A stretch of 64,000 bases of DNA, taken from contig NZ_JNZA01000026.1 in assembly GCF_000717345.1 (NCBI RefSeq), forward strand, positions 1 through 64,000. The letters run 5' to 3'. The position numbers and the translations under genes were made by a program. This document shows positions 40,655 through 63,783 of this stretch, in pieces (the first letter of the stretch is position 1; each line of letters starts with the position of its first letter). The stretch is from Streptomyces lydicus (GTDB lineage: Bacteria > Actinomycetota > Actinomycetes > Streptomycetales > Streptomycetaceae). The notes below the pieces were generated by a model. It had not been told where the DNA came from. It saw nothing but the letters and a program-made list of their open reading frames with translations, and made no database searches.

Positions 40655-40954
40655 GGCGGCCCGACCCCGGCGCGCGAGCGCCGGCGAGCTTCCCGGGTGC
40701 CGCGATTTCCGGCCACGTACCCGGCTGCCGGCTCACCGCCGGAGCCGCCGGGTGCCGTCTCACCGGCCGCCCGGGCCTCCTCGGTGCGATCTTGAACGTC
40801 GCACCGGAGGCCGGGGCGCCGGCCGCATCACGATCAAGGCCCTGAGAGACAAATCGATAACGTCCACACAGTGGAGGGTTTTCCGCCAGGTCTACGCGCG
40901 TTAATCTCCGACAAGTCAGCGCCAAAGGTGGCGCTACGAGTCGAAGGGGCCCTC
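40655..40954 (+). promoter_or_regulatory. Intergenic region upstream of bmpA
   Basis: 300 bp without a gene. It drops in GC towards the right (ACAAATCGATAACGTCCACACAG around 40846-40870) and contains the CTACGCGCGTTA motif at 40892-40903. This is the likely promoter and operator of the nucleoside transporter. Confidence 0.6.
40892..40903. promoter_or_regulatory. Nucleoside-regulon motif, imperfect copy (bmpA)
   Basis: CTACGCGCGTTA differs from the palindrome CTACGCGCGTAG in the last two bases. It lies 51 bp before the bmpA GTG. Confidence 0.6.
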
Positions 40955-41992
40955 GTGCACCGGGTATCCAAGATCGTTGCCGCGGGCATTGCCACCGCGG
41001 CCCTCACACTCTCCCTGAGCGCCTGTGGCGAGTCGTCCACCGAGTCCGGCGGCAAGGACAAGGGCGTCGGCCTCGCCTTTGACGTCGGCGGCCGGGACGA
41101 CCACTCGTTCAACGAGGCGGCGGCTCGTGGCGTGGACAAGGCCCAGAAGGACTTCGGTGTGAAGTCCAAGATGATGACCGCCAAGAACGGCGAGACCGAG
41201 GCGGACCGCGAGCAGCGCCTGTCCTCGCTGGCCGAGGCGGGATACAACCCCGTCATCGGTGTCGGCTTCAACTACGGCAAGTCCGTCAACAAGGTCGCCA
41301 AGCAGTTCCCGAAGACCACCTTCGGCGTCGTTGACTCCCCCTCCCAGGCCAAGAACGTCTACGGCATGGTCTTCGCCGAGAACGAGGCTTCCTACCTCGC
41401 CGGTGTCGCCGCCACGCTGAAGAGCAAGACCCACAAGGTCGGCTTCATCGGCGGTGTGAACAACGCGCTGATCCAGAAGTTCCAGGCCGGCTTCGAGCAG
41501 GGCGTCAAGGACACCGACCCGAAGACGAAGGTCACCTCCGAGTACCTCTACGCCAACGACGACAAGGGCTTCAACGACCCGGCCGCCGCGAAGGGCAAGG
41601 CCAAGGGCATGCTCGACGCCGGCATCGACGTGATCTACACCGCGGCCGGCCAGTCCGGCAACGGCTCGATCGAGACCGTCGCCGGCAAGAAGGGCACCTG
41701 GGCGATCGGCGTCGACTCCGACCAGTACCTGCAGCCGGGCCTGGCCCAGTACAAGAACTCGATCCTCACGTCGGTCATGAAGAACGTCGACGTGGCGGTG
41801 TACGACCTGGTCAAGAGCGTGCACGACAAGAAGCCGCTGACCGGCAACAAGAGCTACACGCTCAAGGACGACGGTGTGCGGCTGTCCACGTCGGGCGGCT
41901 TCATCAAGGACATCCAGGCCAAGATCGACGCGGCCAAGAAGAAGATCGCGTCGGGCCAGGTGAAGGTCAGCGACACCCCCGCCAAGCAGTAG
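40955..41992 (+). CDS. bmpA: BmpA-family nucleoside-binding lipoprotein
   Basis: 345 residues. The lipoprotein signal is IVAAGIATAALTLSLSAC; the Bmp/Med domain follows with VGLAFDVGGRDDHSFNEAAARGV, NPVIGVGFNYGKSVNKVAKQFP, VGFIGGVNNALIQKFQAGFEQGVK, and VIYTAAGQSGNGSIETV. Family members bind purine nucleosides outside the membrane and deliver them to a two-permease ABC importer, which is encoded next. The GTG at 40955 has GAAGGGGCC upstream. Followed by the ATPase and two permeases after ~180 bp that contain another regulon motif. Confidence 0.92.
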   Translation: MHRVSKIVAAGIATAALTLSLSACGESSTESGGKDKGVGLAFDVGGRDDHSFNEAAARGVDKAQKDFGVKSKMMTAKNGETEADREQRLSSLAEAGYNPVIGVGFNYGKSVNKVAKQFPKTTFGVVDSPSQAKNVYGMVFAENEASYLAGVAATLKSKTHKVGFIGGVNNALIQKFQAGFEQGVKDTDPKTKVTSEYLYANDDKGFNDPAAAKGKAKGMLDAGIDVIYTAAGQSGNGSIETVAGKKGTWAIGVDSDQYLQPGLAQYKNSILTSVMKNVDVAVYDLVKSVHDKKPLTGNKSYTLKDDGVRLSTSGGFIKDIQAKIDAAKKKIASGQVKVSDTPAKQ

Positions 41993-42086
41993 GGTCTCCC
42001 CAGCCCGGCGCGACGGCCACCCGCCGCCGCGCCGGGCCGTTCGCCGGATCGCCCCGGCAGGTTTTCGGCTTTTTTCGGCGTCAACA

Positions 42087-42098
42087 CTACGCGCGTAG
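42087..42098. promoter_or_regulatory. Nucleoside-regulon palindrome (ABC operon)
   Basis: A perfect 12-bp palindrome CTACGCGCGTAG lies in the bmpA/ATPase gap, 72 bp upstream of the predicted ATC start and 126 bp upstream of the first GTG. Confidence 0.75.
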
Positions 42099-42224
42099 CG
42101 CGGAGTTGGCGCGATATCTTCACCTCCCCGCTCCTTCGTACCACTCCCTGTCCCCCGAGGAGAGTGCGCCATCAAAGCGTCCAGCAGCCCCCAGGCAGAC
42201 AGCGCCCCCGCCGCGGCACCGGCG

Positions 42225-43799
42225 GTGGAACTCCGCGGGATCACCAAGCGGTTCCCGGGAGTCGTCGCCAACCACGACATCGACATCACCATCCACCGCG
42301 GCACCGTGCACGCGCTGGTCGGCGAGAACGGCGCGGGCAAGTCCACGCTGATGAAGATCCTCTACGGCATGCAGAAGCCGGACGAGGGCACCATCGGCAT
42401 CGACGGCGACCAGGTCAGCTTCCACAGCCCGGCCGACGCCATCGCCCGCGGCATCGGCATGGTGCACCAGCACTTCATGCTCGCCGAGAACCTCACCGTC
42501 CTGGAGAACGTCGTTCTCGGCGGTGAGAAACTGCACGGCATCGGCGCCAAGGCCCGCGCCGAGATCCTCAAGATCTCCGACCGCTACGGCCTCGGTGTCC
42601 GCCCCGACGTCCTCGTCGAGGACCTCGGCGTCGCCGACCGCCAGCGCGTGGAGATCCTCAAGGTCCTCTACCGCGGCGCCCGCACGCTCATCCTCGACGA
42701 GCCGACCGCGGTGCTGGTCCCGCAGGAGGTCGACGCGCTCTTCGACAACCTGCGCGAACTCAAGGCCGAGGGCCTGACCGTCATCTTCATCTCCCACAAG
42801 CTGGGCGAGGTGCTCTCGGTCGCCGACGACATCACCGTCATCCGGCGCGGCACCACCGTGGCCTCCGTCGTTCCCGGCGAGACCACGCCCAAGCAGCTCG
42901 CCGAGCTGATGGTCGGCAGCGAGCTGCCGTCGCCGCAGACCCGCGAGTCCACCGTCACGGACGTGGAGATGCTGAAGGTCGAAGGGCTGAGGCTGACCAC
43001 CGCCGATGCGGAGGGGGTGGAGCGCACCGTCCTGGAGGACGTGTCGCTGACCATCCACAAGGGCGAGGTCCTGGGCATCGCGGGGGTGGAGGGCAACGGC
43101 CAGGCCGAACTGGTCGAGGCGATCATGGGGATGCGCGACCCCGACAGCGGCATCATCACGCTGGACGGCACCGACATCAGCCACCTGCCCACCCGCACCC
43201 GGCGCGAGGACGGCATCGGCTACATCCCCGAGGACCGCCACCGGCACGGCCTGCTGCTGGAGGCCCCCCTGTGGGAGAACCGCATCCTGGGCCACGTCAC
43301 CCAGAAGCCCAACGCCAAGGGCCGGCTGCTCGACCTGAAGGCCGCCCGCGCGGACACCGAGCGGATCGTCGCCGAGTACGACGTCCGCACCCCCGGCATC
43401 GAGGTCACCGCGGCCTCGCTCTCCGGCGGCAACCAGCAGAAGCTGATCTTCGGCCGTGAGATGAGCCACCACCCCAAACTGCTGATCGCCGCGCACCCCA
43501 CCCGGGGCGTGGACGTCGGCGCCCAGGCGCAGATCTGGGACCAGATCCGTACCGCCCGCCACGAGGGTCTCGCCGTACTGCTGATCTCCGCCGACCTGGA
43601 CGAGCTGATCGGCCTGTCCGATTGCCTGCGGGTGATGTACCGCGGCCGGCTCGTCGCGGACGCGGACCCCGCCACCATCACCCCTGAGGAGCTGGGCTCG
43701 GCCATGACCGGCGCCGCCAGCGGCCATCTCACGCATTCCGACAACGACTCCGCCGCGGAGCAGGAGCCGCGCTCGTCCCAGGAGGGGGAGTCCGAGTGA
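42225..43799 (+). CDS. ABC transporter ATP-binding protein, nucleoside uptake
   Basis: 524 residues (542 if translation begins at the ATC at 42171), a duplicated ABC ATPase of the RbsA/NupA type. Half 1 has Walker A GENGAGKST, the Q-loop VHQHFM, a signature VEDLGVADRQRVEI and Walker B TLILDEPTA. Half 2 has GVEGNGQAEL in place of a good Walker A, signature LSGGNQQKL, and LLIAAHPTRGVDVG where Asp-Glu of Walker B is degenerate, as is common in this family. The in-frame sequence upstream of the GTG is open and Ser/Pro/Ala-rich, with GAGGAG eight bases before the ATC. Coupled to the permeases by a GTGA overlap. Confidence 0.92.
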   Translation: MELRGITKRFPGVVANHDIDITIHRGTVHALVGENGAGKSTLMKILYGMQKPDEGTIGIDGDQVSFHSPADAIARGIGMVHQHFMLAENLTVLENVVLGGEKLHGIGAKARAEILKISDRYGLGVRPDVLVEDLGVADRQRVEILKVLYRGARTLILDEPTAVLVPQEVDALFDNLRELKAEGLTVIFISHKLGEVLSVADDITVIRRGTTVASVVPGETTPKQLAELMVGSELPSPQTRESTVTDVEMLKVEGLRLTTADAEGVERTVLEDVSLTIHKGEVLGIAGVEGNGQAELVEAIMGMRDPDSGIITLDGTDISHLPTRTRREDGIGYIPEDRHRHGLLLEAPLWENRILGHVTQKPNAKGRLLDLKAARADTERIVAEYDVRTPGIEVTAASLSGGNQQKLIFGREMSHHPKLLIAAHPTRGVDVGAQAQIWDQIRTARHEGLAVLLISADLDELIGLSDCLRVMYRGRLVADADPATITPEELGSAMTGAASGHLTHSDNDSAAEQEPRSSQEGESE

Positions 43800-44902
43800 A
43801 GAAGATCGACAAGAACAAGCTGATCCTGGGCATCGCCGCGCCCGTCCTGGCGATCGTCGCGGCGCTGGCCATCACCTCGGTGATCATCCTGGCCACCGGC
43901 AAGGACCCGATCCACGCCTACCTGGTGATGGCCGACTTCGGCTCCAAGAGCGACAGCCAGGTCTGGATCATCAACAAGGCGGTCCCCTACTACCTGTCCG
44001 CGCTGGCCGTCGCCATCGGCTTCCGGATGAACCTCTTCAACATCGGCGTCGACGGCCAGTACCGCATCGCGGCGTTCTTCGCCGCGGTGGTCGGCGGTGC
44101 GCTGACCCTCCCCGGCTTCCTCCAGATCCCGGTCATCATCATCGTCGCGATGCTGGTCGGCTCGGTCTGGGCAGGCATCGCGGGTCTGCTGAAGACCACC
44201 CGCGGCGTCAGCGAGGTGATCACCACGATCATGCTGAACGCCATCGCGGCCGCGGTCATCGGCTACTTCCTCCAGGACGGCCGGCTCGCGGTCAAGGACG
44301 GCAACCTCTTCCACACGCCGAACCTCCCGGCCTCCAGCCACTTCTTCACCATCCCCACCCAGCCCGCTCCCCTCGACGGCTTCCTCGTCATCGCCGTGGT
44401 CGTCGGCTTCGTGTACTGGTTCGTGCTCAACCGCACCCGCTTCGGCTTCGACCTCCGCACGGTCGGCCAGTCCGAGTCCGCGGCCGAGGCGGGCGGCGTC
44501 AGCGTCAAGCGGATGATCGTCACCTCGATGCTGCTGTCCGGCGCCGCGGCGGGCCTGATCGGCATGCCCACGCTGCTCGGCTCCTCGTACAACTACGGCA
44601 CCGACTTCCCCATCGGCATCGGCTTCACCGGCATCGCCATCGCGCTGCTGGGCCGGAACCACCCGCTCGGGATGGCCGCCGCCGCGCTGCTGTGGGGCTT
44701 CCTCGAGCGCACCGGCACCCAGCTCGAATTCGAGGACTACCAGCAGGAGATCGTCGGCGTGATGCAGGGCGTCATCGTGCTGTGCGTCGTCGTCGCCTAC
44801 GAACTCGTACGGCGCTACGGCCTCAGACTCCAGCAGCGGCAGGTCGGCGCGGAGCTCGCCGCCCAGGCCCGTAAGACCGAGAAGGCGGAGGTGTCCTCGT
44901 GA
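43796..44902 (+). CDS. ABC transporter permease 1, nucleoside uptake
   Basis: 368 residues, ~9-10 membrane helices of the BPD_transp_2 family, with the cytosolic coupling sequence SAAEAGGVSVKRMIVTSMLLSGAAAGLIGMPTLLG and ISNIGVDGQYR-like FNIGVDGQYRIAAFFAAV. It forms the pore together with the next permease. The GTG overlaps the ATPase stop (GTGA). The C-terminus is basic and cytosolic. Confidence 0.93.
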   Translation: MKKIDKNKLILGIAAPVLAIVAALAITSVIILATGKDPIHAYLVMADFGSKSDSQVWIINKAVPYYLSALAVAIGFRMNLFNIGVDGQYRIAAFFAAVVGGALTLPGFLQIPVIIIVAMLVGSVWAGIAGLLKTTRGVSEVITTIMLNAIAAAVIGYFLQDGRLAVKDGNLFHTPNLPASSHFFTIPTQPAPLDGFLVIAVVVGFVYWFVLNRTRFGFDLRTVGQSESAAEAGGVSVKRMIVTSMLLSGAAAGLIGMPTLLGSSYNYGTDFPIGIGFTGIAIALLGRNHPLGMAAAALLWGFLERTGTQLEFEDYQQEIVGVMQGVIVLCVVVAYELVRRYGLRLQQRQVGAELAAQARKTEKAEVSS

Positions 44903-46188
44903 GTACGAACCTCACGGCTCCGGTCGACCAGAGCCCCCACCACCACAAGCCCAAGGCATCCCGGGCCAAGCTCAGCTACCCCAAGGTCCTGCTGATCATC
45001 TCGGGCAGCCTGATCCTGCTGTCCCTGCTGCGGGTGATCACCGGCGCCAACAACCTGACCGAATCCGGCCAGTACACCGCCGCGCTCAACGCCGCCGTGC
45101 CGATCGGCCTGGCCGGCCTCGGCGGTCTGTGGTCCGAGCGCTCCGGCGTCATCAACATCGGCCTCGAAGGCATGATGATGCTGGGCGCCTTCTCCGCGGG
45201 CGCGGTCGGCTGGCAGCACGGCCCCTGGGCCGCGGCGGCGGCCGGAATCGTCGGCGGCGCGCTCGGCGGACTGCTGCACGCCGTCGTCACCGTCACCTTC
45301 GGCGTCGACCACATCATCTCCGGCGTCGCCATCAACATCATGGCGCTCGGCCTGACCCAGTTCCTCGCCAAGCTGTGGTTCGGCGCGGACGGCAGCGCGG
45401 CGGCGGCCGCCGGCGGCAACGACAAGCAGTCGCCACCGATGCCCGACATGCCGACGTTCACCGTGCCCGGTCTGTCCGACTGGCTCTACTCCGTCGAGCA
45501 GCACCACTGGTTCCTGGTCTCCGACGTGGCCGGCATCCTCGGCTCCCTGGTCACCAACGTCTCCTGGCTGACCCTGCTGACCGCCGTCGTCTTCGTGCTC
45601 AGCTTCTTCGTCCTGTGGCGTTCCGCCTTCGGCCTGCGGCTGCGCTCCTGCGGCGAGGGCCCGATCGCGGCCGAGTCGCTGGGCGTCAACGTCTACCGCT
45701 ACAAGTACGCGGCGGTGATCGTCTCCGGCGCGCTGGCCGGCCTCGGCGGCGCGTTCCTCGCGATCTACGTGCACATCTACCAGGACGGCCAGACCGGCGG
45801 CCGCGGCTACATCGGCCTCGCCACCATGATCTTCGGCAACTGGCGGCCGGGCGGCGTCGCCATGGGCGCCGGCTTGTTCGGCTTCATGGACGCGCTCCAG
45901 CTGCGCGGCGGCGGCCCCACCGTCCACGCGCTGCTGCTCCTGCTCGCCGTGCTGCTGGTCGGCCTGGCGGTGTGGAAGCTGCGCGCCGGGCAGCGCCCCC
46001 AGGCCGTGATCAGCCTGGTCGTCGCCGTGCTGCTCGCCGCCTGGTACGCCACCACCGACACGGTCCCGCTGGAGATCGTCGGTGTCGCCCCGTACATCGC
46101 CACGCTGCTGGTGCTCTCGCTGGCTTCGCAACGACTGCGGCCCCCGAAGGCCATCGGCAAGATCTACCGGAGAGGCCAGGGCAAGTGA
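44899..46188 (+). CDS. ABC transporter permease 2, nucleoside uptake
   Basis: 429 residues with ~10 membrane helices, the second BPD_transp_2 permease of the BmpA-type importer: GLGGLWSERSGVINIGLEGMMMLGAFSAG, GVDHIISGVAINIMALGLT, the coupling segment LRLRSCGEGPIAAESLGVNVYRYKYAAVIVSGALAGLGGAFLAI and IGLATMIFGNWRPGG. A His-rich N-terminus (SPHHHKP) and a ~70-residue extracellular loop between helices are present. The GTG overlaps the previous stop (GTGA), and its own stop overlaps cdd the same way. Confidence 0.93.
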   Translation: MSTNLTAPVDQSPHHHKPKASRAKLSYPKVLLIISGSLILLSLLRVITGANNLTESGQYTAALNAAVPIGLAGLGGLWSERSGVINIGLEGMMMLGAFSAGAVGWQHGPWAAAAAGIVGGALGGLLHAVVTVTFGVDHIISGVAINIMALGLTQFLAKLWFGADGSAAAAAGGNDKQSPPMPDMPTFTVPGLSDWLYSVEQHHWFLVSDVAGILGSLVTNVSWLTLLTAVVFVLSFFVLWRSAFGLRLRSCGEGPIAAESLGVNVYRYKYAAVIVSGALAGLGGAFLAIYVHIYQDGQTGGRGYIGLATMIFGNWRPGGVAMGAGLFGFMDALQLRGGGPTVHALLLLLAVLLVGLAVWKLRAGQRPQAVISLVVAVLLAAWYATTDTVPLEIVGVAPYIATLLVLSLASQRLRPPKAIGKIYRRGQGK

Positions 46189-46580
46189 GCACCACTCCCG
46201 ACTGGGAGTCGCTGCGGGCGCAGGCCCGGGACGCGATGTCCCGGGCCTACGCCCCGTACTCCGGCTACCCCGTCGGGGCCGCCGCCCTCGTGGACGACGG
46301 CCGCACGGTCACCGGCTGCAACGTGGAGAACGCCTCGTACGGCCTCGCCCTGTGCGCCGAATGCGGCCTGATCTCCGCCCTGTTCGCCACCGGCGGCGGC
46401 CGCCTCACGGCCTTCACCTGCGTCGACGGCGCCGGCGACCTGCTGGTCCCCTGCGGCCGCTGCCGCCAACTCCTGCACGAGCACGGCGGCCCGGACCTCC
46501 TGGTCGACACGAGTGCCGGCGTCCGCCCGCTCTCCGAGCTGCTGCCGGACGCCTTCGGCCCCCACCACCTCACCCGCTGA
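46185..46580 (+). CDS. cdd: Cytidine deaminase
   Basis: 131 residues of the tetrameric type: RAYAPYSGYPVGAAALVDDGRTVTGCNVENASYGLALCAECGLISAL, with the zinc/catalytic motif CAE, then VPCGRCRQLLHEHGG with the other two zinc cysteines. It converts cytidine and deoxycytidine to uridine and deoxyuridine. The GTG at 46185 overlaps the permease stop by four bases (GTGA), so uptake and first salvage step are made together. A 26-bp tandem repeat starts on its stop codon. Confidence 0.95.
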   Translation: MSTTPDWESLRAQARDAMSRAYAPYSGYPVGAAALVDDGRTVTGCNVENASYGLALCAECGLISALFATGGGRLTAFTCVDGAGDLLVPCGRCRQLLHEHGGPDLLVDTSAGVRPLSELLPDAFGPHHLTR

Positions 46581-46704
46581 CCACGGGCGGCGCCCGCTGC
46601 CGCTGACCACGCGCGGTGCCTGCCGCCGCTGACCGCCGGCGGCGCCTGCCGTCGGCGGCCTCCGGTGGCGCCTGCCGCCGGCGGCCCCCGGAACGCCCTG
46701 GCCT
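46575..46704 (+). repeat. 26-bp tandem repeat, four copies plus a degenerate fifth
   Basis: Units begin at 46575, 46601, 46627, 46653 and (degenerate) 46679, each 26 bp. The first three start CGCTGACC and carry a (C/G)G(C/G)CGG(C/T)GCC core; unit 1 spans the cdd stop codon. GC content is above 80 percent. Confidence 0.75.
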
Positions 46705-46727
46705 CCCCTCACGTTGTGGTCTGCAAG

Positions 46728-46761
46728 GGGCGTTCGCGTCCCCTACGGGATGCGAACGCCC
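46728..46761 (+). terminator. Hairpin terminator of the transporter-cdd operon
   Basis: GGGCGTTCGCGTCCC and GGGATGCGAACGCCC pair over 15 bp with a single G-U and a 4-nt loop, ~150 bp after cdd and before the deoA operator. Confidence 0.7.
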
Positions 46762-46814
46762 GCCCCTTACGTGCCGTGCCTGCCGTCTGCCGGCCCGCCC
46801 TGGCCACCCCGGCG

Positions 46815-46828
46815 TCTATGCGTGTAGA
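46815..46828. promoter_or_regulatory. Nucleoside-regulon motif, variant copy (deoA)
   Basis: TCTATGCGTGTAGA keeps the outer TCTA/TAGA arms of TCTACGCGCGTAGA with two C-to-T changes. It lies 30 bp upstream of the deoA ATG. Confidence 0.6.
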
Positions 46829-46858
46829 ACGGACCTACCCGTTCGAAAGGAACCGTCC

Positions 46859-48136
46859 ATGGACGCCATCTCCGTCATCCGTACCAAGCGCGACCGCGGC
46901 GAACTGACCCCCGATCAGATCGACTGGGTCATCGACGCCTACACCCGCGGCGAGGTCGCCCACGAGCAGATGTCGTCCCTGGCGATGGCCATCTTCCTCA
47001 ACGGGATGAACCGCAAGGAGATCGCCCGCTGGACCGCGGCCATGATCGCCTCCGGTGAGCGCATGGACTTCTCCTCGCTGCCCCGCCCCACCGCCGACAA
47101 GCACTCCACCGGCGGCGTCGGCGACAAGATCACCCTGCCGCTCGCCCCGCTCGTCGCCGCCTGCGGCGCCGCCGTCCCGCAGCTCTCCGGCCGGGGCCTG
47201 GGCCACACCGGCGGCACCCTCGACAAGCTGGAGTCCATCCCCGGCTGGCGCGCGACCCTCTCCAACGCCGAGATGCTGGACGTGCTGCGCGACGTCGGCT
47301 CCGTCATCTGCGCCGCCGGCGACGGCCTCGCCCCCGCCGACAAGAAGCTCTACGCCCTCCGCGACGTCACCGCCACCGTCGAGTCCATCCCGCTCATCGC
47401 CTCCTCGATCATGTCCAAGAAGATCGCCGAGGGCACCGGCTCCCTCGTCCTGGACGTCAAGGTCGGCTCCGGCGCCTTCATGAAGCACCTCGACGACGCC
47501 CGCGAACTCGCCTCCACCATGGTCGGGTTGGGCACCGACCACGGCGTCCGCACGGTCGCCCTGCTCACCGACATGGCCACCCCCCTCGGCCGGACCGCGG
47601 GCAACGCCCTCGAAGTACGGGAATCCGTCGAGGTGCTGGCCGGCGGCGGCCCCCAGGACGTCATCGACCTCACCCTCGCGCTGGCCCGCGAAATGCTTGA
47701 CGCGGCCGGCCTCAAGGACGCCGACCCGGCCAAGGCGCTCGCCGACGGCTCCGCCATGGACCACTGGCGCCGCATGATCACCGCGCAGGGCGGCGACCCC
47801 GACGCGGCCCTCCCCGTCGCCCGTGAGCAGCACACCGTCACCGCCTCCGCCACCGGCACCCTCACCACCCTCGATGCCTACGCCGTCGGCCTCGCCGCCT
47901 GGCGTCTGGGCGCCGGCCGGGCCCGCAAGGAGGACCCGGTCCAGGCCGCCGCCGGCATCGAACTCCACGCCAAGCCCGGCGACCGCGTCACCGCCGGCCA
48001 GCCCCTGCTCACCCTGCACACCGACACCCCCGAGAAGCTCCCCTACGCCCTCCAGGCCCTCGACGGCGGCGTCCTCGTCGGCCCCGCCGACGCCACCTTC
48101 GTGGCGGGCCCCGTGGTGCTGGAACGTATCGGCTGA
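46859..48136 (+). CDS. deoA: Thymidine/pyrimidine-nucleoside phosphorylase
   Basis: 425 residues: DAISVIRTKRDRGELTPDQIDWVIDAYTRGEV, then the signature region SGRGLGHTGGTLDKLESIPG, phosphate-site KHSTGGVGDK, and C-terminal domain blocks DPVQAAAGIELHAKPGDRVTAGQPLLTLHTD. It cleaves thymidine, deoxyuridine or uridine to base plus (deoxy)ribose-1-phosphate. The deoxyribose product can feed DeoC, encoded at 62.7 kb. The ATG has AAAGGAACC upstream. It is a separate transcription unit from cdd, with its own regulon-like motif. Confidence 0.95.
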   Translation: MDAISVIRTKRDRGELTPDQIDWVIDAYTRGEVAHEQMSSLAMAIFLNGMNRKEIARWTAAMIASGERMDFSSLPRPTADKHSTGGVGDKITLPLAPLVAACGAAVPQLSGRGLGHTGGTLDKLESIPGWRATLSNAEMLDVLRDVGSVICAAGDGLAPADKKLYALRDVTATVESIPLIASSIMSKKIAEGTGSLVLDVKVGSGAFMKHLDDARELASTMVGLGTDHGVRTVALLTDMATPLGRTAGNALEVRESVEVLAGGGPQDVIDLTLALAREMLDAAGLKDADPAKALADGSAMDHWRRMITAQGGDPDAALPVAREQHTVTASATGTLTTLDAYAVGLAAWRLGAGRARKEDPVQAAAGIELHAKPGDRVTAGQPLLTLHTDTPEKLPYALQALDGGVLVGPADATFVAGPVVLERIG

Positions 48137-48158
48137 CCTGCGGTTTCCTCGTACGGGT

Positions 48159-48268: not shown

Positions 48269-48281
48269 CGCTGAGGGGGTG

Positions 48282-49653: not shown

Positions 49654-49720
49654 AATCAATGCTGTGATGCATGATCGCAGGTCGCCGGGGTCCCTGTTGC
49701 AGCTTCGCAACAGAAAAGAC

Positions 49721-50629
49721 ATGTCGGAATCTTCCTGGGCGCTGACGCTGGCACCGCGGCTGGCCCAGTTCGAGGCCGTGGCCCGCCACGAGCACGTGAC
49801 CCGCGCCGCGCAGGAGCTGGGGATGCCCCAGTCGACGCTGAGCCGCGCCATCGTCCGGCTGGAGGAGGACCTCGGCGTCGCCCTCTTCGCCCGGCACGGC
49901 CGGACCCTCTCCCTCAGCCCCGCCGGCCGCACCTTCCTCTCCTCCGTCGAACGCGCGCTGGCAGACGTCGAACGCGCCACCGAGTCCGTCCGCGCGGACG
50001 TCGACCCGGAGGCCGGCAAGGTCGCCTTCGGATTCCTGCACACGCTCGGATCGGAGACCGTACCGGGCCTGCTGCGCACCTTCCGTGCCGACCACCCCAA
50101 GGTCCGCTTCCAGCTCGTCCAGAACTACGGCGAGGCAATGATCGAACGGCTCCGCGCCGGCGACCTCGACCTGTGCCTGACCTCCCCCGTCCCGGACTAC
50201 CCCGACCTGGTCGCCCGCCGGCTCGACGAACAGAAACTCCGCCTGGTCGTACCGGAGGACCACCGGCTGGCCACCCGCAAACGGATCCGCCTCGTCGAGG
50301 CCGCCGACGAACTGTTCGTCACCCTCGAACCGGGCTACGGCCTGCGTCGCATCACCGACGCCCTGTGCACCGAGGCGGGGTTCACCCCGAAGGTCGCGTT
50401 CGAGGGCGAGGAGGCCGAGACCCTCCGCGGCCTGGTCGCCGCCGGCCTGGGCGTCGCCCTCCTGCCCCCACCCGCCGTACCCCGCCCCGGCGTCGTGGAA
50501 CTGACCGTCACCGCCCCCCGCGCCGTCCGCGAGATCGGCGTCGCCTGGCTCGACGGCCACGTGGACACACCCCCGGTGGCCGCCTTCAAAAAATTCCTCC
50601 TGAGCCGCCGCGGCGAACTGCTGTCCTGA
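49721..50629 (+). CDS. LysR-family regulator
   Basis: 302 residues from the ATG at 49721; an ATG at 49667 would add 18 residues and is also possible. The winged helix is LAPRLAQFEAVARHEHVTRAAQELGMPQSTLSRAIVRLEEDLGVALFARHGRTLSLSPAGRTFL, followed by a periplasmic-binding-like effector domain (GKVAFGFLHTLGSETVPGLLRTF). It is probably the local regulator of the divergent MFS gene. No ribosome site is strong for either start. Confidence 0.87.
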   Translation: MSESSWALTLAPRLAQFEAVARHEHVTRAAQELGMPQSTLSRAIVRLEEDLGVALFARHGRTLSLSPAGRTFLSSVERALADVERATESVRADVDPEAGKVAFGFLHTLGSETVPGLLRTFRADHPKVRFQLVQNYGEAMIERLRAGDLDLCLTSPVPDYPDLVARRLDEQKLRLVVPEDHRLATRKRIRLVEAADELFVTLEPGYGLRRITDALCTEAGFTPKVAFEGEEAETLRGLVAAGLGVALLPPPAVPRPGVVELTVTAPRAVREIGVAWLDGHVDTPPVAAFKKFLLSRRGELLS

Positions 50630-51451: not shown

Positions 51452-51526
51452 GACCAGAACGATGGCAGAAGGAGAGGTGCCCGCCACCCTGTGGACGGGT
51501 CACTGTTACGTATCGTTCGGTGATAT

Positions 51527-51538
51527 CTACGCGCGTAG
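51527..51538. promoter_or_regulatory. Nucleoside-regulon palindrome (add)
   Basis: A perfect CTACGCGCGTAG, preceded by GATAT as at deoC, ends 16 bp before the add ATG, where it would overlap the transcription start. Confidence 0.78.
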
Positions 51539-51554
51539 GGGCTAGAGTGCCGCA

Positions 51555-52712
51555 ATGACGAGCGAGACCACCCTTCCGACCAGTGAACAGATCCGCCGCG
51601 CCCCCAAGGTGCTGCTCCACGACCACCTCGACGGCGGACTGCGCCCCGCCACGGTCGTCGACCTGGCCCGCGCCACCGGCTACGACGGCCTGCCCGAGAC
51701 CGACCCCGAAAAGCTCGGGATCTGGTTCCGCGAGGCCGCCGACTCCGGCTCGCTCGAGCGCTACCTGGAGACCTTCGCGCACACCTGCGCCGTCATGCAG
51801 ACCCGCGACGCACTGGCCCGGGTGGCCGCCGAGTGCGCCGAGGACCTGGCCGCCGACGGCGTCGTCTACGCCGAGGTCCGGTACGCGCCCGAGCAGCACC
51901 TGGAGCAGGGGCTGACCCTCGAAGAGGTCGTCGAGGCGGTCAACGAGGGCTTCCGCGAGGGTGAGCGCCGGGCCCGCGAGAACGGCCACCGCATCCGTGT
52001 CGGCGCCCTGCTGACCGCCATGCGGCACGCCGCCCGCGCCCTGGAGATCGCCGAACTCGCCAACCGCTACCGCGACACCGGCGTCGTCGGCTTCGACATC
52101 GCCGGCGCCGAGGCCGGCTACCCGCCCACCCGCCACCTCGACGCCTTCGAGTACCTCAAGCGGGAGAACAACCACTTCACCATCCACGCCGGTGAAGCCT
52201 TCGGCCTGCCGTCCATCTGGCAGGCGCTCCAGTGGTGCGGCGCCGACCGGCTGGGCCACGGCGTCCGGATCATCGACGACATCGAGGTCGCCGACGACGG
52301 CTCGGTGATCCTCGGCCGGCTCGCCTCGTACGTGCGTGACAAGCGCATCCCGCTGGAGATGTGCCCCACCTCCAACCTCCAGACCGGCGCGGCGCCCTCC
52401 TACGCGGAGCACCCCATCGGCCTGCTGCGCCGGCTCCAGTTCAGGCTCACCGTCAACACGGACAACCGGCTGATGAGCGGCACGAACATGTCGCTGGAAT
52501 TCGAGCACCTGGTCAAGACATTCCGGTACACGCTCGATGACATGCAGTGGTTTACAGTCAATGCGATGAAATCAGCGTTCATTCCTTTCGATGAACGTCT
52601 GGCCATGATCAATGACGTCATCAAGCCCGGATATGCCGAACTGCGGGCCGAATGGCTGTTCCGCCCGGCGGCGACAACGACCCCGCTGAGCAGTGAGTCT
52701 GACCGTGCGTAA
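51555..52712 (+). CDS. add: Adenosine deaminase
   Basis: 385 residues of the metal-dependent barrel: [14 protein letters not shown] with the first zinc ligands, [30 protein letters not shown], the HAGEA motif ([15 protein letters not shown]) with the third zinc His and catalytic Glu, [23 protein letters not shown] and [12 protein letters not shown]. It converts adenosine and deoxyadenosine to inosine and deoxyinosine. A regulon palindrome lies 16 bp before the ATG, linking it to the importer, deoA and deoC. Ends in a hairpin with a U-tract. Confidence 0.95.
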
Positions 52713-57372: not shown

Positions 57373-57388
57373 GTGACAGGGCTGTGAC
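57373..57388. promoter_or_regulatory. AfsQ1 box upstream of sigQ and afsQ1
   Basis: GTGAC-N6-GTGAC matches the direct repeat GTnAC-n6-GTnAC established for AfsQ1. It lies 107 bp upstream of the sigQ ATG and 101 bp upstream of afsQ1. Confidence 0.85.
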
Positions 57389-57495
57389 AGTCGACGGACA
57401 ACGCGATGAAACTGGCTTGGCAGTCTTTTGGGCACCGGGAGAGATCAACAACCCGGAGACACCGAACGAGCTGGCTCTACGACGGGGGGCGCGAG

Positions 57496-58302: not shown

Positions 58303-58463
58303 AGGAACCGGGCCCACGGGGGAAGCTGGGCCCGCACCCGAGGGGAAGCCCGAGGGGGGTACGGGGGATACGGGGGAAACCGGCAGAAGCGGAGCAATCC
58401 GCGGAAGCCGGACGTATCGGGGGATACGTAAAAGAGGGGAAACACGGGGGACACGGGGAAAAC

Positions 58464-58506
58464 GGAGCGGGTTCGGGCGGCCGGGGGGTCTGCCCGAACC
58501 CGCTCC
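58464..58506. terminator. Hairpin between sigQ and OsmC gene
   Basis: A perfect 15-bp stem GGAGCGGGTTCGGGC/GCCCGAACCCGCTCC with a 13-nt loop lies between convergent genes. Confidence 0.78.
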
Positions 58507-58532
58507 CTCGTTGTGCGCCGGGTCCGCGCCGG

Positions 58533-59009
58533 TCAGGCGCCCCGCACCGCCACCACCGGCACGTGCCGCACCGGGAAATTCACCGAGTTGGCGATGAAGC
58601 ACTTCTGATGCGCGTCACCGTGCAGCGCCCGCGCCCGCTCGGCGTCGTCCGCCGACGCCACCTCGACCCGCGGCCGCAGCACCACATCGGTGAACCGGCC
58701 GCCGCCCGCACCGTCCTCCGCCATCGTGCCCTCCGCGTCGTCCACGTACCCCGTGACCACCACACCCGCCAGCGAGCACAGCGCCAGATACGTCAGCATG
58801 TGGCACTGCGCCAGCGAGGCGAGCAGCAACTGCTCCGGATTCCAGCGGTCCGCCGAGCCGCGGAACGCCGGATCGGCGGTGCCCGCGAGCGGCGGCGGCC
58901 CCTCCGCGCGCACCTCGTGCTCCCGGCCGTACGCGCGGTATCCGCTGGTCCCGGAACCGGAGTTGCCGGTCCAGGTGACGGTGGTGCGGTAGCTGTGCTG
59001 TCCCGGCAT
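58533..59009 (-). CDS. OsmC/Ohr-family peroxide-reducing protein
   Basis: 158 residues of the OsmC fold, with the two redox Cys in LLLASLAQCHMLTYL and HQKCFIANSVNFPV, and the conserved start region YRTTVTWTGNSGSGTSGYRAYGREHEV. These proteins reduce organic hydroperoxides as dimers. The N-terminal block resembles the Streptomyces OsmC subgroup more than Ohr, but the substrate is uncertain. It stands 90 bp from the end of a uridine-kinase-like gene on the same strand. Confidence 0.87.
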   Translation of the reverse strand: MPGQHSYRTTVTWTGNSGSGTSGYRAYGREHEVRAEGPPPLAGTADPAFRGSADRWNPEQLLLASLAQCHMLTYLALCSLAGVVVTGYVDDAEGTMAEDGAGGGRFTDVVLRPRVEVASADDAERARALHGDAHQKCFIANSVNFPVRHVPVVAVRGA

Positions 59010-59099
59010 CGGGCCATCCCCTCGTCGACTGCCCGCAGCCTACGGCCGCCCGCCCGCCACGACACGAACGGCCGGGAGCCGGCAGCCCGCGACCGGACC

Positions 59100-59819
59100 T
59101 CAGGAGCGAACGGGCGCGCCCGGCACGCCCGCCGTCCGCGCGGCCACGATGCGCGCCAGCGCCTCCGGCCCCGCGCACGCATACGCACCCAGCGCGGTGT
59201 GCCGGGCCACCACGGCACGCTCACCGCGCATCAGCCGCAGCCCACGACGCACCAGATACGGCGCCGACTTGCGGCCCTCCCGCAGATCGCGCACCAGCCG
59301 CCGGCGGAACGTCGTGGACGGCCGGCCCCGCAGACACAGCGCGTCCGCCAGCACCCCCGCCGCCCGGCAGGCCGCGATGACATCCGCGGCGAAGATGCCC
59401 TCCGCGATGAACAGCCCGGACCCGCCCAGATCCAGCTCGGACCCGCCGACCCGGGCACTCGCGGCGATGTCGTACACCGGAACGTCCGAACGCCCCGTAC
59501 GGCACAGTGCCTCGATCGCCGCCACCGCCGCGCCGGCGTCCCAGGAGAGCGGCGAATCCCAGTCCGCGCCGCCACCGTCGGCCAGTTGCGGCAGCGTCGG
59601 GTCCGTCCCGTCCTTGTAGAAGTCGTCGAGGTTGAGGACCGGCAGACCGCTGCGCGCGGCCAGGGACGTCTTGCCGGAACCGGACGGGCCCGTCAGCAGG
59701 ACGACACGGGCGGGAGCGCCGCCCCGCTCAGGGCGGTCCCCCCGCCCGGCCGGAGCCGGGGGCGAAGGAGGAGCCGAGAGCTTGGCGGACGGCGGCAGGG
59801 CGAAGGAGTGAGAGCTCAC
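59100..59819 (-). CDS. Uridine-kinase-like P-loop kinase
   Basis: 239 residues. A disordered Pro/Ala-rich start is followed by the P-loop VVLLTGPSGSGKTSLAARSGLPVLNLDDFYKDG, then WDSPLSWD and YDIAASARVGG, and EGIFAADVI in the uridine-kinase/phosphoribulokinase pattern; Arg-rich lid RPSTTFRRRLVRDLREGRKSAP. It probably phosphorylates uridine or cytidine. It belongs by theme to the salvage genes around it but has no regulon motif. The GTG at 59819 is divergent from a small secreted protein gene. Confidence 0.85.
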   Translation of the reverse strand: MSSHSFALPPSAKLSAPPSPPAPAGRGDRPERGGAPARVVLLTGPSGSGKTSLAARSGLPVLNLDDFYKDGTDPTLPQLADGGGADWDSPLSWDAGAAVAAIEALCRTGRSDVPVYDIAASARVGGSELDLGGSGLFIAEGIFAADVIAACRAAGVLADALCLRGRPSTTFRRRLVRDLREGRKSAPYLVRRGLRLMRGERAVVARHTALGAYACAGPEALARIVAARTAGVPGAPVRS

Positions 59820-59965
59820 GGGTACTCATTGTCGCCCATGCGGCCGTGTGGGGGACCCCTGGCGCGCGAGGTGGATCGGCCACCCCCGCTCAACTACGCT
59901 ACGCAGTCAACCGATTACCCAACTCCTCCGCCCGTACAGCCATTCGACCCACAGGCAGGTGGCCC

Positions 59966-60370
59966 ATGCCCTCCCACGCACGTCCCAGGACCGGTCGCGT
60001 CCCGCGCACCCTGCTGCGCGCAGGTCTGGCGGTCTCCGCGGCCGGAGCCGCCCTCGCGGCGGGCGGTGCGGCGACGGCGAGCGCGGCCCCCGCGCCCGCC
60101 CCGGCGCACGGCACCGACACCGGCGCCACGGCCTCCGCACTGACCGGCGCCCTCCTGCACTCCGTCGCCGGCGGCGTCGGCCCGGTCAAGAACCTCCAAC
60201 TGGACCCGTTCGCCAACACCGCCGTCGACCCGCTCGCCAACGCCGTCGCCACCCAGATCGCCGACTTCAAGCCGCTGAGCACCACCGTCGTGACCGGCTC
60301 CCTCTCCCGCGGCGCCGCCCTCCGCGACGTACCGCTCGTCGGCCTCACCACCAGAGTGCTGCCCGGCTGA
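59966..60370 (+). CDS. Small secreted protein
   Basis: 134 residues: a twin-Arg-poor Sec signal (AGLAVSAAGAALAAGGAATASA) and a mature part with GPVKNLQLDPFANTAVDPLANAVATQI, Leu/Asp/Pro-rich, ending TTRVLPG. No cysteine, no known domain; it shares the 'VKNL' core with the 52855 secreted protein. The ATG at 59966 has AGGCAGGTGG upstream. Followed by a strong bidirectional hairpin. Confidence 0.72.
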   Translation: MPSHARPRTGRVPRTLLRAGLAVSAAGAALAAGGAATASAAPAPAPAHGTDTGATASALTGALLHSVAGGVGPVKNLQLDPFANTAVDPLANAVATQIADFKPLSTTVVTGSLSRGAALRDVPLVGLTTRVLPG

Positions 60371-60392
60371 CCGGCCGGCCCACCACGACGAC

Positions 60393-60430
60393 GGCGCGGG
60401 ACCCCACCACCACAGGTGGGGTCCCGCGCC
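60393..60430. terminator. Bidirectional terminator between secreted protein and ALDH genes
   Basis: A perfect 16-bp stem GGCGCGGGACCCCACC/complement with a 6-nt loop between convergent genes. Confidence 0.8.
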
Positions 60431-60456
60431 GCCCTACGGGCCCGCAGGCCGCCCGG

Positions 60457-61317
60457 TCAGACGCCCATCGGATGCCAGACCGTCTTCGTCTCCAGGAAGG
60501 ACAGCAGACGCTCCGTCCCCGGGGCGGCACTCCAGTCCACCGCCCCCGGGCGCAGCACCCGCTTGAGGTTGTCGGCCGCCGCCGTCTCCAGATCCTTCGC
60601 CAACCCGGCGTCCGCACCCGCGAGATCGATCGCGTTGACGTCCTGATGGGCGGCGAGCGGCGCCCCGAGCTCCGCCGTACGGCCCGAGAGGAGGTTGACC
60701 ACACCGCCCGGCAGATCGGACGTCGCCAGCACCTCGGCCAGCGACAGCGCCGGCAGCGGCGCGTCCTGCGCGGCCACCACGACCACCGTGTTGCCGGTGA
60801 CGATCGCCGGCGCCACCACCGAGACCAGACCGAGGAACGACGACTCCTGCGGCGCCAGGACGGCGACCACACCGGTCGGCTCCGGCGCCGACATGTTGAA
60901 GTACGGGCCCGCGACCGGGTTGGCGCCACCCGCGATCTGGGCGACCTTGTCGGACCAGCCCGCGTACCACACCCAGCGGTCGATCGCCGCGTCCACCTGC
61001 GCGGCGGCCTTGGCCTTCGAGCACCCCTCGGCGTCCGCGACCTCCGCGACGAACTGGTCCCGCCGGCCCTCCAGCATCTCCGCGACGCGGTAGAGGATCT
61101 GCCCGCGGTTGTACGCCGTCGCGCCCGACCAGCCGCCGAACGCCTTACGGGCGGCGACCACCGCGTCCCGGGCGTCCTTACGGGAGGCCAGCGGCGCGTT
61201 GGCGAGCCACCTGTCCTTCGAGTCGGTCACCTCGTACACCCGCCCGCTCTCGGACCGGGGGAACTTGCCCCCGACGTACAGCTTGTAGGTCTTGAGAACG
61301 CTCAGCCGATCAGACAT
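60457..61317 (-). CDS. Truncated aldehyde-dehydrogenase-family protein
   Basis: 286 residues covering only the NAD-binding half of the ALDH fold: KTYKLYVGGKFPRSESGRVYEV, AAIDRWVWYAGWSDKVAQIAGG, GVVAVLAPQESSFLGLVSVVAPAIVTGNTVVVVAAQDAPL. The catalytic Cys and the C-terminal catalytic domain are absent, and the protein ends cleanly at a stop. It overlaps the full ALDH gene by 8 bp and is transcribed after it. Streptomyces carry such pairs beside deoC; the short protein may form a mixed oligomer or regulate its partner. Confidence 0.82.
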   Translation of the reverse strand: MSDRLSVLKTYKLYVGGKFPRSESGRVYEVTDSKDRWLANAPLASRKDARDAVVAARKAFGGWSGATAYNRGQILYRVAEMLEGRRDQFVAEVADAEGCSKAKAAAQVDAAIDRWVWYAGWSDKVAQIAGGANPVAGPYFNMSAPEPTGVVAVLAPQESSFLGLVSVVAPAIVTGNTVVVVAAQDAPLPALSLAEVLATSDLPGGVVNLLSGRTAELGAPLAAHQDVNAIDLAGADAGLAKDLETAAADNLKRVLRPGAVDWSAAPGTERLLSFLETKTVWHPMGV

Positions 61318-62740
61318 TGAGGTACGCCTCCAGACCGTGCCGGCCACCCTCGCGACCGAAGCCCGACTCCTTGTACCCGCCGAACGGCGAAGCCGGGTCG
61401 AACTTGTTGAACGTGTTGGACCAGATGACGCCCGCCCGCAGCTTGCTCGCCATCCACAGCATCCGCGAGCCCTTCTCCGTCCAGATGCCCGCCGACAGCC
61501 CGTACGGCGTGTTGTTGGCCTTCTCCACGGCCTCCGCCGGCGTACGGAACGTCAGCACGGACAGCACCGGACCGAAGATCTCCTCACGGGCGATGCGGTG
61601 CGCCTGGGTGACACCCGTGAAGAGGGTCGGCGCGAACCAGTAGCCCGAGCCGGGCAGTTCGCAGTCCGGGGCCCAGCGCTCGGCGCCCTCGGCCTCACCC
61701 GCGTCGGCCAGCGCCGTGATCCGGGCCAGCTGCTCGGCGGAGTTGATCGCACCGACGTCGGTGTTCTTGTCCAGCGGATCACCCACCCGCAGCGTCCGCA
61801 TCCGGCGCTTCAGCGCCTCCAGCAGCTCGTCCTGGACGGACTCCTGCACCAGCAGGCGGGACCCGGCGCAGCAGACGTGCCCCTGGTTGAAGAAGATGCC
61901 GTTGACGATGCCCTCGACGGCCTGGTCGATCGGGGCGTCGTCGAAGACGATGTTCGCCGCCTTGCCGCCCAGTTCGAGGGTGACCCGCTTGTCCGTGCCG
62001 GCGACCGTACGGGCGATGGCCTTGCCGACCTCGGTGGAACCGGTGAAGGCGACCTTGTTGATGTCCGGGTGCCCGACCAGCGCCGCGCCCGTCGAACCGT
62101 CCCCGGTGAGGATGTTCACGACACCCTTGGGCAGACCCGCCTGACGGCAGATGTCCGCGAAGAACAGCGCGGACAGCGGCGTCGTCTCGGCGGGCTTCAG
62201 GACGACCGTGTTGCCGGTCGCCAGCGCCGGGGCGATCTTCCACGCCAGCATCAGCAGCGGGAAGTTCCAGGGGATGACCTGGCCCGCGACACCCAGCGGG
62301 CGCGGGTTCGGGCCGTAGCCCGCGTGATCGAGCTTGTCGGCCCAGCCCGCGTAGTAGAAGAAGTGCGCGGCGACCAGCGGCAGATCGGCGTCCCGGGACT
62401 CCCGGATCGGCTTGCCGTTGTCCAGCGACTCCAGGACCGCCAGCTCACGCGAGCGCTCCTGGATGATCCGGGCGATCCGGAACAGGTACTTGGCGCGCTC
62501 GGCGCCCGGCAGCGCCGACCACTTCTCGAACGCCTTGCGGGCGGCCTTCACGGCACGGTCGACGTCCTCGGCGCTCGCCTGCGCCACCTCGGAGAGGGAC
62601 TCCTCCGACGAGGGCGAGACGGTCTTGAACACCTTGCCGTCGGACGCCGGGGCGAACTCCCCGTCGATGAACAGGCCGTAGGACGGCGCGATGTCGACGA
62701 CCGCGCGGGACTCGGGTGCGGGTGCGTAATCGAAGGTCAT
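61310..62740 (-). CDS. Aldehyde dehydrogenase
   Basis: 476 residues of full-length ALDH: GLFIDGEFAPASDGKVF, GVAGQVIPWNFPLLMLAWKIAPALATGNTVVLKPAETTPLSAL, FTGSTEVGK, LELGGKAANIVF with the catalytic Glu, NQGHVCCAGSRL with the catalytic Cys, and REEIFGPVLSVL. It oxidises an aldehyde with NAD(P). Its place directly after deoC suggests acetaldehyde, the DeoC product, as substrate. It lies 7 bp past deoC and overlaps the truncated partner by 8 bp, in one operon. Confidence 0.92.
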   Translation of the reverse strand: MTFDYAPAPESRAVVDIAPSYGLFIDGEFAPASDGKVFKTVSPSSEESLSEVAQASAEDVDRAVKAARKAFEKWSALPGAERAKYLFRIARIIQERSRELAVLESLDNGKPIRESRDADLPLVAAHFFYYAGWADKLDHAGYGPNPRPLGVAGQVIPWNFPLLMLAWKIAPALATGNTVVLKPAETTPLSALFFADICRQAGLPKGVVNILTGDGSTGAALVGHPDINKVAFTGSTEVGKAIARTVAGTDKRVTLELGGKAANIVFDDAPIDQAVEGIVNGIFFNQGHVCCAGSRLLVQESVQDELLEALKRRMRTLRVGDPLDKNTDVGAINSAEQLARITALADAGEAEGAERWAPDCELPGSGYWFAPTLFTGVTQAHRIAREEIFGPVLSVLTFRTPAEAVEKANNTPYGLSAGIWTEKGSRMLWMASKLRAGVIWSNTFNKFDPASPFGGYKESGFGREGGRHGLEAYLNV

Positions 62741-62747
62741 GGGTGCC

Positions 62748-63752
62748 TCAGTCCACCGTGACGTAGTCGGGGCCGGAGTACCGGCCGGTGCTGAGCTTCT
62801 GGCGCTGCATCAGCAGGTCGTTCAGGAGGCTGGAGGCGCCGAAGCGGAACCAGTCGGCGGTCAGCCAGGGCTCGCCGAGCGTCTCGTTGACCATCACCAG
62901 GTACTTGAGCGCGTCCTTGGTCGTACGGATGCCGCCGGCCGGCTTCACGCCGACCTGGACGCCGGTCGCGGCGTGGAAGTCGCGCACCGCCTCCAGCATC
63001 AGCAGCGTCACCGGCGGGGTGGCATTGACCGCGACCTTCCCGGTCGAGGTCTTGATGAAGTCCGCGCCGGCCAGCATCGCCAGCCAGGAGACCCGGCGCA
63101 CGTTGTCGTACGTCTGGAGCTCACCGGTCTCGAAGATGACCTTCAGGTGCGCGGCGCTGCCGTCCGGGCGGGCGCACGCCTCCTTGACGGCCTTGATCTC
63201 CTCGAAGACCGCCATGTAGCGGCCGGAGAGGAACGCCCCCCGGTCGATCACCATGTCGATCTCGTCGGCGCCGGCCGCGACCGCGTCCCGGGTGTCGGCC
63301 AGCTTGACCGGCAGCGCGGCACGGCCGGCCGGGAAGGCGGTGGCGACGGACGCGACGTGGATCTCCGGAGCGCCGCCGTTGCGGAGCGCCTCCTTGGCCG
63401 TCGCGACCATGTCGGGATAGACGCAGATCGCCGCGACCTTCGGGGCGGTCCGGTCGGTCGGGTCCGGGTTGCTGCCCTTGGCGCACAGCGCCCGGACCTT
63501 CCCCTGGGTGTCCGCGCCTTCGAGGGTCGTCAGGTCGATCATCGAGATGGACAGGTCGATGGCGTACGCCTTCGCCGTCGTCTTGATCGAACGGGTGCCG
63601 AGGGTGGCGGCGCGGGCCTCGAGGCCGACCGCGTCGACGCCCGGGAGGCCGTGGAGGAAGCGGCGCAGCGCACCGTCGTCGGCGGTCACGTCCGCCATTG
63701 ACGCCAGACGCCCCGCGGCTTCCTTGCCGTATGCGGGAACAGTGATGGGCAT
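62748..63752 (-). CDS. deoC: Deoxyribose-phosphate aldolase
   Basis: 334 residues of the DeoC barrel: ICVYPDMVATAKEAL, ASVATAFPAGRAALPVKLADTRDAVAAGADEIDMVIDRGAFLSGRY, LKVIFETGEL, GADFIKTSTGKVAVNATPP with the Schiff-base Lys, and GVKPAGGIRTTKDAL. It cleaves 2-deoxyribose-5-phosphate to acetaldehyde and glyceraldehyde-3-phosphate. The N-terminus is ~70 residues longer than in E. coli DeoC. The ATG at 63752 lies 19 bp from a regulon palindrome; longer frames run through it. Confidence 0.95.
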   Translation of the reverse strand: MPITVPAYGKEAAGRLASMADVTADDGALRRFLHGLPGVDAVGLEARAATLGTRSIKTTAKAYAIDLSISMIDLTTLEGADTQGKVRALCAKGSNPDPTDRTAPKVAAICVYPDMVATAKEALRNGGAPEIHVASVATAFPAGRAALPVKLADTRDAVAAGADEIDMVIDRGAFLSGRYMAVFEEIKAVKEACARPDGSAAHLKVIFETGELQTYDNVRRVSWLAMLAGADFIKTSTGKVAVNATPPVTLLMLEAVRDFHAATGVQVGVKPAGGIRTTKDALKYLVMVNETLGEPWLTADWFRFGASSLLNDLLMQRQKLSTGRYSGPDYVTVD

Positions 63753-63771
63753 GGTCACGAGGGGAGCATAT

Positions 63772-63783
63772 CTACGCGCGTAG
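63772..63783. promoter_or_regulatory. Nucleoside-regulon palindrome (deoC operon)
   Basis: A perfect CTACGCGCGTAG with ATAT on its left, 19 bp upstream of the deoC ATG and the same as the add site. Confidence 0.78.

Follow-up and report, generated by a model that had tools for sequence, protein, structure and literature searches.

What brings the nucleoside genes of a Streptomyces lydicus contig under common control, and what kind of protein would exert it? The stretch analysed, called the window throughout, is 64,000 nucleotides long (positions 1 to 64,000 of contig NZ_JNZA01000026.1, assembly GCF_000717345.1), and the element in question is a short palindrome, CTACGCGCGTAG, which a first-pass annotation had noticed upstream of several nucleoside genes. 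We conclude that this palindrome is very probably the operator of a repressor that is conserved across the Streptomycetaceae, is encoded outside the window and covers the core promoters of nucleic-acid-scavenging genes. In all comparisons the genus was taken as Streptomyces and the family as Streptomycetaceae, since Streptomyces supplies nearly all named relatives of the dihydropyrimidinase of this genome.

The first-pass annotation had claimed three exact copies, more than chance would give, and we recovered them at the same positions (42087, 51527 and 63772), with no match in 100 dinucleotide shuffles. The two close variants that it had listed are both real: TCTACGCGCGTTAA at 40891 (before bmpA) and TCTATGCGTGTAGA at 46815 (before deoA) each differ from the 14-mer TCTACGCGCGTAGA at two positions. 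Its remark that the window holds no further copy also stands, as the sole other match to the 14-mer within three mismatches, at 1212, has all three, and at that looseness the window is near chance (6 matches seen versus 2.74 expected). The five sites are:

40891..40904, forward strand: variant operator TCTACGCGCGTTAA, upstream of bmpA; the predicted -10 hexamer TAATCT falls on its right arm
42086..42099, forward strand: operator with exact core CTACGCGCGTAG, before the operon of an ATP-binding cassette (ABC) ATPase, two permeases and cdd
46815..46828, forward strand: operator variant TCTATGCGTGTAGA, before deoA
51526..51539, forward strand: operator with exact core, before add; just upstream of the predicted -10 hexamer TAGAGT
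63771..63784, reverse strand: operator with exact core, directly upstream of the predicted deoC -10 hexamer TATGCT

Distances from site to start codon are 51 bp for bmpA, 126 bp for the ABC ATPase gene (GTG 42225), 31 bp for deoA, 16 bp for add and 73 bp for deoC (ATG 63698), and so span the 16 to ~126 bp first reported with the starts used there. With the likelier starts, ATC 42171 and GTG 63758 (both frames are open), the distance shortens to 72 bp for the ABC gene and to 13 bp for deoC. The whole genome (8.18 Mb) contains four exact copies, all on this contig in a span of 26 kb. Just outside the window, at contig position 67947, the fourth lies on the minus strand 25 bp upstream of deoD, so that a genome-wide scan for unlinked copies found exact ones in the nucleoside cluster only. 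When three mismatches to the 14-mer were allowed, 101 places were found versus 146 for a reversed control; weak matches alone therefore carry no meaning.

We then surveyed the target genes in 39 stretches from 27 family genomes (the S. lydicus genome itself, 11 more of the genus and 15 of other genera), scoring upstream regions from -250 to +20 and counting as a site any match to the 12-mer with at most two mismatches. All 15 add regions had an exact site, all 24 deoC regions had one within a single mismatch (18 exact), and deoD had a site in 26/26 regions (21 exact). For bmpA, sites were present in all 12 upstream regions (12 genes, some genomes having two), always with an unchanged left arm and a right arm of TTA rather than TAG. 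The ABC ATPase gene (abcA) had a site in 9 of 11 regions, all nine exact, and deoA in only 3 of 12. Pooled, 89 of the 100 target regions carried a site, versus none of 236 regions upstream of 13 control genes from the same neighbourhoods. One hundred permuted palindromes gave means of 0.14-0.86 regions on the six target genes at the same threshold, and at most 0.07 when one mismatch was allowed; single permuted palindromes reached at most 12/26 at deoD and 10/12 at deoA. In 15 loci of other genera picked by their DeoR gene alone (L102-L116), the site stood before deoD in 15/15 and before deoC in 12/12. The family-wide conservation upstream of orthologues on which the first reading had been made to depend was thus found, together with empty control regions. 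That reading named five targets, of which bmpA, the ABC operon, add and deoC keep their sites; of the five sites, that of deoA has the least support, and deoA does not belong to the conserved part of the regulon.

The exact palindrome was present in 121/121 genus genomes, with 2 to 6 copies each (0 to 3 for a reversed control word), and in 120/121 family genomes representing 16 of 17 genera, some with a single copy. The only family genome without an exact copy, G417, keeps weaker sites before deoC (one mismatch) and deoD (two mismatches). In a class-wide draw of 296 genomes, an exact copy occurred in 28/28 members of the genus versus 10/268 others, and at the 12 places in those ten genomes no recognisable nucleoside gene was found when 3-kb loci were read by eye. 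A genome outside the family, G204, has three exact copies and no DeoR homologue. We rejected it as a regulon lacking DeoR: its sites lie, one each, in low-complexity DNA, just past the 3' end of a sulfatase-like frame and inside open frames to which no name could be given. The three copies were treated as unrelated to the nucleoside operator, without proof. The sites, their specificity for the target genes and their conservation are direct observations, and a chance origin of the palindrome was rejected on the shuffles, the genome count, the family-wide conservation and the control genes.

The position of the sites points to the sign of the regulation. At bmpA the TTA right arm builds a TANNNT hexamer that overlaps the site in 12/12 regions, and at deoC a predicted -10 hexamer follows the site directly in 24/24 (TATGCT in 23, TACGGT in one). 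At add a TANNNT hexamer stands a few bases downstream of the site in 15/15 regions, and the start codon comes six or seven bases later, which suggests that add transcripts are leaderless. Before a gene for a 5'-nucleotidase-like protein, described below, one arm of the site runs into TTGAC. Differing offsets between genes are expected of a repressor and not of an activator with fixed phasing. Since the sites overlap predicted core promoters at differing offsets, steric repression is favoured, in line with what the first-pass annotation had surmised from add and deoC.

We infer protein binding, repression and an inducer. A repressor would sit on TCTAC-N4-GTAGA, probably as a dimer, cover the core promoter and block RNA polymerase, and a metabolite of the pathway would presumably release it. 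Under its control would stand the import of nucleosides (bmpA and the ABC operon, which includes cdd), the deamination of adenosine (add and a second gene, add2), phosphorolysis (deoD, and deoA in some species) and deoxyribose-5-phosphate breakdown (deoC and aldehyde dehydrogenases). Further targets would be the 5'-nucleotidase-like exported protein, a dihydropyrimidinase operon that probably serves pyrimidine degradation, and either the purSQL operon or a divergent lsr2-like gene.

The genes behind the five sites in the window are:

40955..41992, forward strand: bmpA-type (PnrA-like) substrate-binding lipoprotein of an ABC importer (Pfam Bmp, 9.6e-61)
42171..43799, forward strand: ATPase of the ABC importer; start placed at a conserved ATC, the first in-frame ATG/GTG/TTG being GTG 42225
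43796..46188, forward strand: two ABC permeases, overlapping genes (43796-44902 and 44899-46188); B6 ABC permease models, below cutoffs
46185..46580, forward strand: cdd, cytidine deaminase (Pfam dCMP_cyt_deam_1, 3.6e-13)
46859..48136, forward strand: deoA, thymidine/pyrimidine nucleoside phosphorylase (NCBIfam NF004490, 642.7 bits, cutoff 269)
51555..52712, forward strand: add, adenosine deaminase (NCBIfam NF006847, 641.8 bits, cutoff 412)
60457..62740, reverse strand: two aldehyde dehydrogenase-family genes downstream of deoC (61310-62740 and 60457-61317); cutoffs of the specific models not reached
62748..63758, reverse strand: deoC, deoxyribose-phosphate aldolase (NCBIfam TIGR00126, 178.2 bits, cutoff 117.3); presumed start GTG 63758, open frame

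The order in which the two aldehyde dehydrogenase-family genes follow deoC is kept in relatives, and the cluster also holds a PGM/PMM-family mutase and the purine nucleoside phosphorylase deoD. Judged by their profile matches, the cluster products can jointly import, deaminate and split nucleosides and break down deoxyribose phosphate, which bears out the shared function first ascribed to them; deoC, deoD, deoA and add, like the dihydropyrimidinase and PurQ treated below, score above their model cutoffs. At the start of the ABC ATPase gene (window 42158-42173), AGGAGAGTGCGCC is followed by an in-frame ATC (nine) or ATA (one) in all ten places found in the scanned stretches. Another locus (L125) has ATC after a one-base variant of this word, two (L119, L172) are without the word, and L117 has GTC at the position of the alternative start GTG 42225. 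The ABC ATPase thus seems to start at a non-standard ATC codon.

Nucleoside uptake and salvage, the scope first proposed, held for the salvage genes and proved too narrow, as it left out deoD, add2, the 5'-nucleotidase-like gene, purSQL or the lsr2-like gene, and the dihydropyrimidinase operon. In other genus genomes, exact copies outside the cluster were found where a second adenosine deaminase gene begins (add2, five loci), before the 5'-nucleotidase-like gene and in the gap between an lsr2-like gene and purS; in three of the 20 stretches examined (L154, L164, L165), an exact copy has no gene of this kind beside it. As it was the exact word that led to the add2 loci, their conservation is no independent test. 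In these loci (L156, L158, L159, L160, L168), the palindrome lies within codons 3-7 (MTATRV), downstream of a seemingly normal ribosome-binding site, a position that would mean repression from inside the gene.

For purQ orthologues in 30 genomes, a site was present 300-515 bp upstream, before purS, in 30/30, with one mismatch to the 14-mer in 28 and two in 2. Orthologues of the 5'-nucleotidase-like gene, which 29 of 30 genomes possess, had a site of the GCTACGCGCGTTGA type in 29/29. With 200 permuted palindromes the highest counts were 11 for purSQL and 3 for the 5'-nucleotidase-like gene, and 28 purQ loci outside the family gave background only (2/10 positions wrong once, 3-5 wrong in the rest).

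Dihydropyrimidinase loci were picked by hydA similarity alone, and of the 80 named (more existed) 63 contained a perfect TCTAC-N4-GTAGA. After 38 loci in which the sequence before the first amidase frame could not be read were set aside, 42 regions upstream of the first amidase frame remained; 34 of these had a perfect site and 41 a site within 2/10 positions, versus none for 21 permuted half-sites. These sites lie 39-54 bp before the conserved amidase N-terminus in the regions listed, bar one failure. The S. lydicus genome, L234 and L274 have a site directly before the dihydropyrimidinase gene in addition to the one before the amidase. The names amidase and 5'-nucleotidase-like rest on matches below model cutoffs, and export of the latter was read by eye from its N-terminus. 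In ten genomes, TCTACNNNNGTAGA occurred at 33 places versus one for a reversed control; judged by position or middle bases, 6 belong to purSQL, 10 to the dihydropyrimidinase operon and 15 to another element, and 2 were left unassigned.

The other element, TCTACA-NN-TGTAGA, occurs as a pair 34 bp apart between TetR-family and FAD monooxygenase-like genes (G000:C15:203630 and 203664; L357), and similar pairs, 29-45 bp apart, are present in G009, G012, G015 and G286. They are probably the operator of another regulator that shares the outer half-site. One-mismatch 14-mer sites in the S. lydicus genome lie near an HAD acid phosphatase whose N-terminus resembles an export signal (G000:C3:71050, L007), near an NCS2-type (Xan_ur_permease) permease (C6:219272, L008) and within the opening codons of a GmrSD_C-domain protein that looks exported (C64:9140, L013); these three are plausible candidate members of the regulon.

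Nucleoside genes under a shared palindromic operator are a familiar kind of arrangement (DeoR, CytR, PurR, UriR), and the target list here is unusually broad. In E. coli, DeoR and CytR control deo, cdd, udp, nup and tsx genes. There, dispersed operators serve to repress nucleoside import, the deaminases, the phosphorylases and deoxyribose-phosphate aldolase in concert, as they would here. The two cases part in that the operator differs from TGTTAGAATTCTAACA, the genes here also include the 5'-nucleotidase-like protein, the dihydropyrimidinase operon and purSQL, and the DeoR-family protein encoded nearby falls far short of the E. coli DeoR model. PurR of the B. subtilis type holds purine synthesis and some salvage genes under one control, and the joining of the two classes here may resemble it. 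A central CG is common in LacI operators and is found in most sites here (GCGC, CCGC and TCGC middles), whereas the 34 dihydropyrimidinase-operon sites have GGGC or GTGC middles without it. The regulons of the LacI-family proteins UriR, AdeR, HpxR and PurR also concern nucleoside use or purine synthesis, and the portion of that source consulted does not describe the present site and gene set (PMC4052901). NupR (GntR/HutC), the nucleoside permease regulator of Bacillus thuringiensis, controls nucleoside transport as well and belongs to a different phylum (PMC9430930). We found no description of the operator or regulon in the open literature, subscription papers and preprints not being covered. 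As a string, CTACGCGCGTAG turned up in two papers, on DNA structure and on GapR, and within the same coverage CTACNNNNGTAG and five other spellings had no match.

Which protein reads the site? The first-pass annotation saw no obvious regulator in the window, and none there fits. A LysR gene (49667-50629) stands beside an MFS gene in 15/15 loci; we rejected it, as the site was present in 0/15 and the promoter overlap is unsuited to a LysR activator. A TetR gene next to deoR was likewise rejected, as the 260 bp that separate deoR from accA in G013 leave no room for it. Some species have a PucR-family gene inside the dihydropyrimidinase operon (L283 2479-4020; L263 by eye), which did not show up in the two S. 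lydicus stretches read at this operon, nor at that place in others that keep the site. Two MarR genes lie near 2-mismatch sites in the same genome (L016, L019).

The obvious candidate would be a DeoR-family protein whose gene (contig 70937-71920) lies 3 kb beyond deoD; its inducer would be deoxyribose or ribose phosphate, as in the E. coli deo system. We consider this reading unlikely. By synteny, the gene is presumably SCO4920 and the cluster SCO4884-SCO4917. The protein has HTH_DeoR and DeoRC domains, in each of the 25 family loci with both genes its own lies 2.2-8.0 kb from deoD, and homologues were found in all 28 genus genomes examined (at least 79% identity) and all 23 other family genomes (at least 74%). 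Residues 1-61 are identical in 24/25 family loci, and the exception, G417 (A45S, G61A), is also the sole family genome of 121 without the exact palindrome, a coincidence that speaks for DeoR. Against it, the site is absent upstream of deoR (0/25 regions), where another promoter element (G000 contig C26:70700-70937), written CGGTC...GTTACTGTC or CGGTC...GTTACTGTCAGTTTCGTG, is conserved across the family. Four homologues outside the family (L082-L085; 66-70% identity), whose recognition helix is almost unchanged, carry CGRTCA boxes upstream at 4.25 per 250 bp, versus 0.41 once two-base blocks are shuffled, and their loci contain no CTACGCGCGTAG within one mismatch in the stretches read. These boxes, which stand beside sugar ABC transporter genes, are likely operators of that DeoR-family protein. 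The argument is not clean, as the family shows a milder excess of such boxes before deoR (0.96 versus 0.27), deoD (0.62 versus 0.25) and add (0.60 versus 0.25). Nor does the protein qualify as an equivalog of E. coli DeoR (70.7 bits to NF007961, cutoff 244); its best model, AgaR (183.8 bits), also stays below the cutoff of 260. A 2010 network study, in the part available, placed SCO4920 in a co-expression module with sigma factors and bldN, a further point against it (PMC3224704), and another partly consulted source lists it as a DeoR-family regulator among glucose-affected regulators (PMC4848846). An unlinked regulator is the likelier one.

That the palindrome might instead be an activator site, the genes being switched on when nucleosides are present, appears improbable. 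The sign of regulation is read from site position, and the 5'-nucleotidase-like site, at the upstream edge of TTGAC, could be in a class II activator position, but the add, deoC and bmpA sites lie in the spacer or over the -10 hexamer, which one would not expect of an ordinary activator. We give hardly any credence to an action in RNA, as a hairpin or leader element. A perfect 12-base dyad could fold into a short hairpin; yet at add, deoC and deoD a predicted -10 hexamer, read by eye, lies between the site and a start codon ~6-7 bases on, so that the site would not be transcribed, and some variants keep one arm only (bmpA, 5'-nucleotidase-like).

Several points weigh against the repressor itself. 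No regulator could be tied to the site, either in the window or among the candidates examined outside it, and the -10 and -35 hexamers are predictions made by eye from the known consensus. The genus counts within the pooled 89/100 are inflated, as the genus stretches were picked to cover known exact sites; abcA was without a site in 2/11 regions and deoA in 9/12, where one permuted control reached ten. Moreover, purSQL serves biosynthesis, a function that one would not expect to obey the signal logic of catabolic genes, and the site before purS may instead serve the divergent gene of an Lsr2-family nucleoid protein (G000:C14, L009).

What would a repressor covering these promoters mean for the family? 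We see an even chance that the Streptomycetaceae hold an undescribed master repressor of the nucleotide economy, acting on one regulon through TCTAC-N4-GTAGA, which arose in the family independently of DeoR, CytR and PurR. If so, the breakdown of extracellular nucleotides, the import and phosphorolysis of nucleosides, the degradation of the pyrimidine ring and de novo purine synthesis (or an Lsr2-like protein) would be joined, and the mycelium may switch to recycling the DNA and RNA of lysed hyphae. DNA and RNA recycled from dying hyphae feed sporulation and antibiotic production, a process known to be switched by the purine pool (GTP, ppGpp). If a single regulator stood over salvage, pyrimidine breakdown and purSQL, that process could be acted on through it. 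For nucleic-acid scavenging in these antibiotic-making bacteria, the analysis supplies the operator, a list of its target genes and a map of its conservation across the family, and the operator gives a direct route to its regulator.

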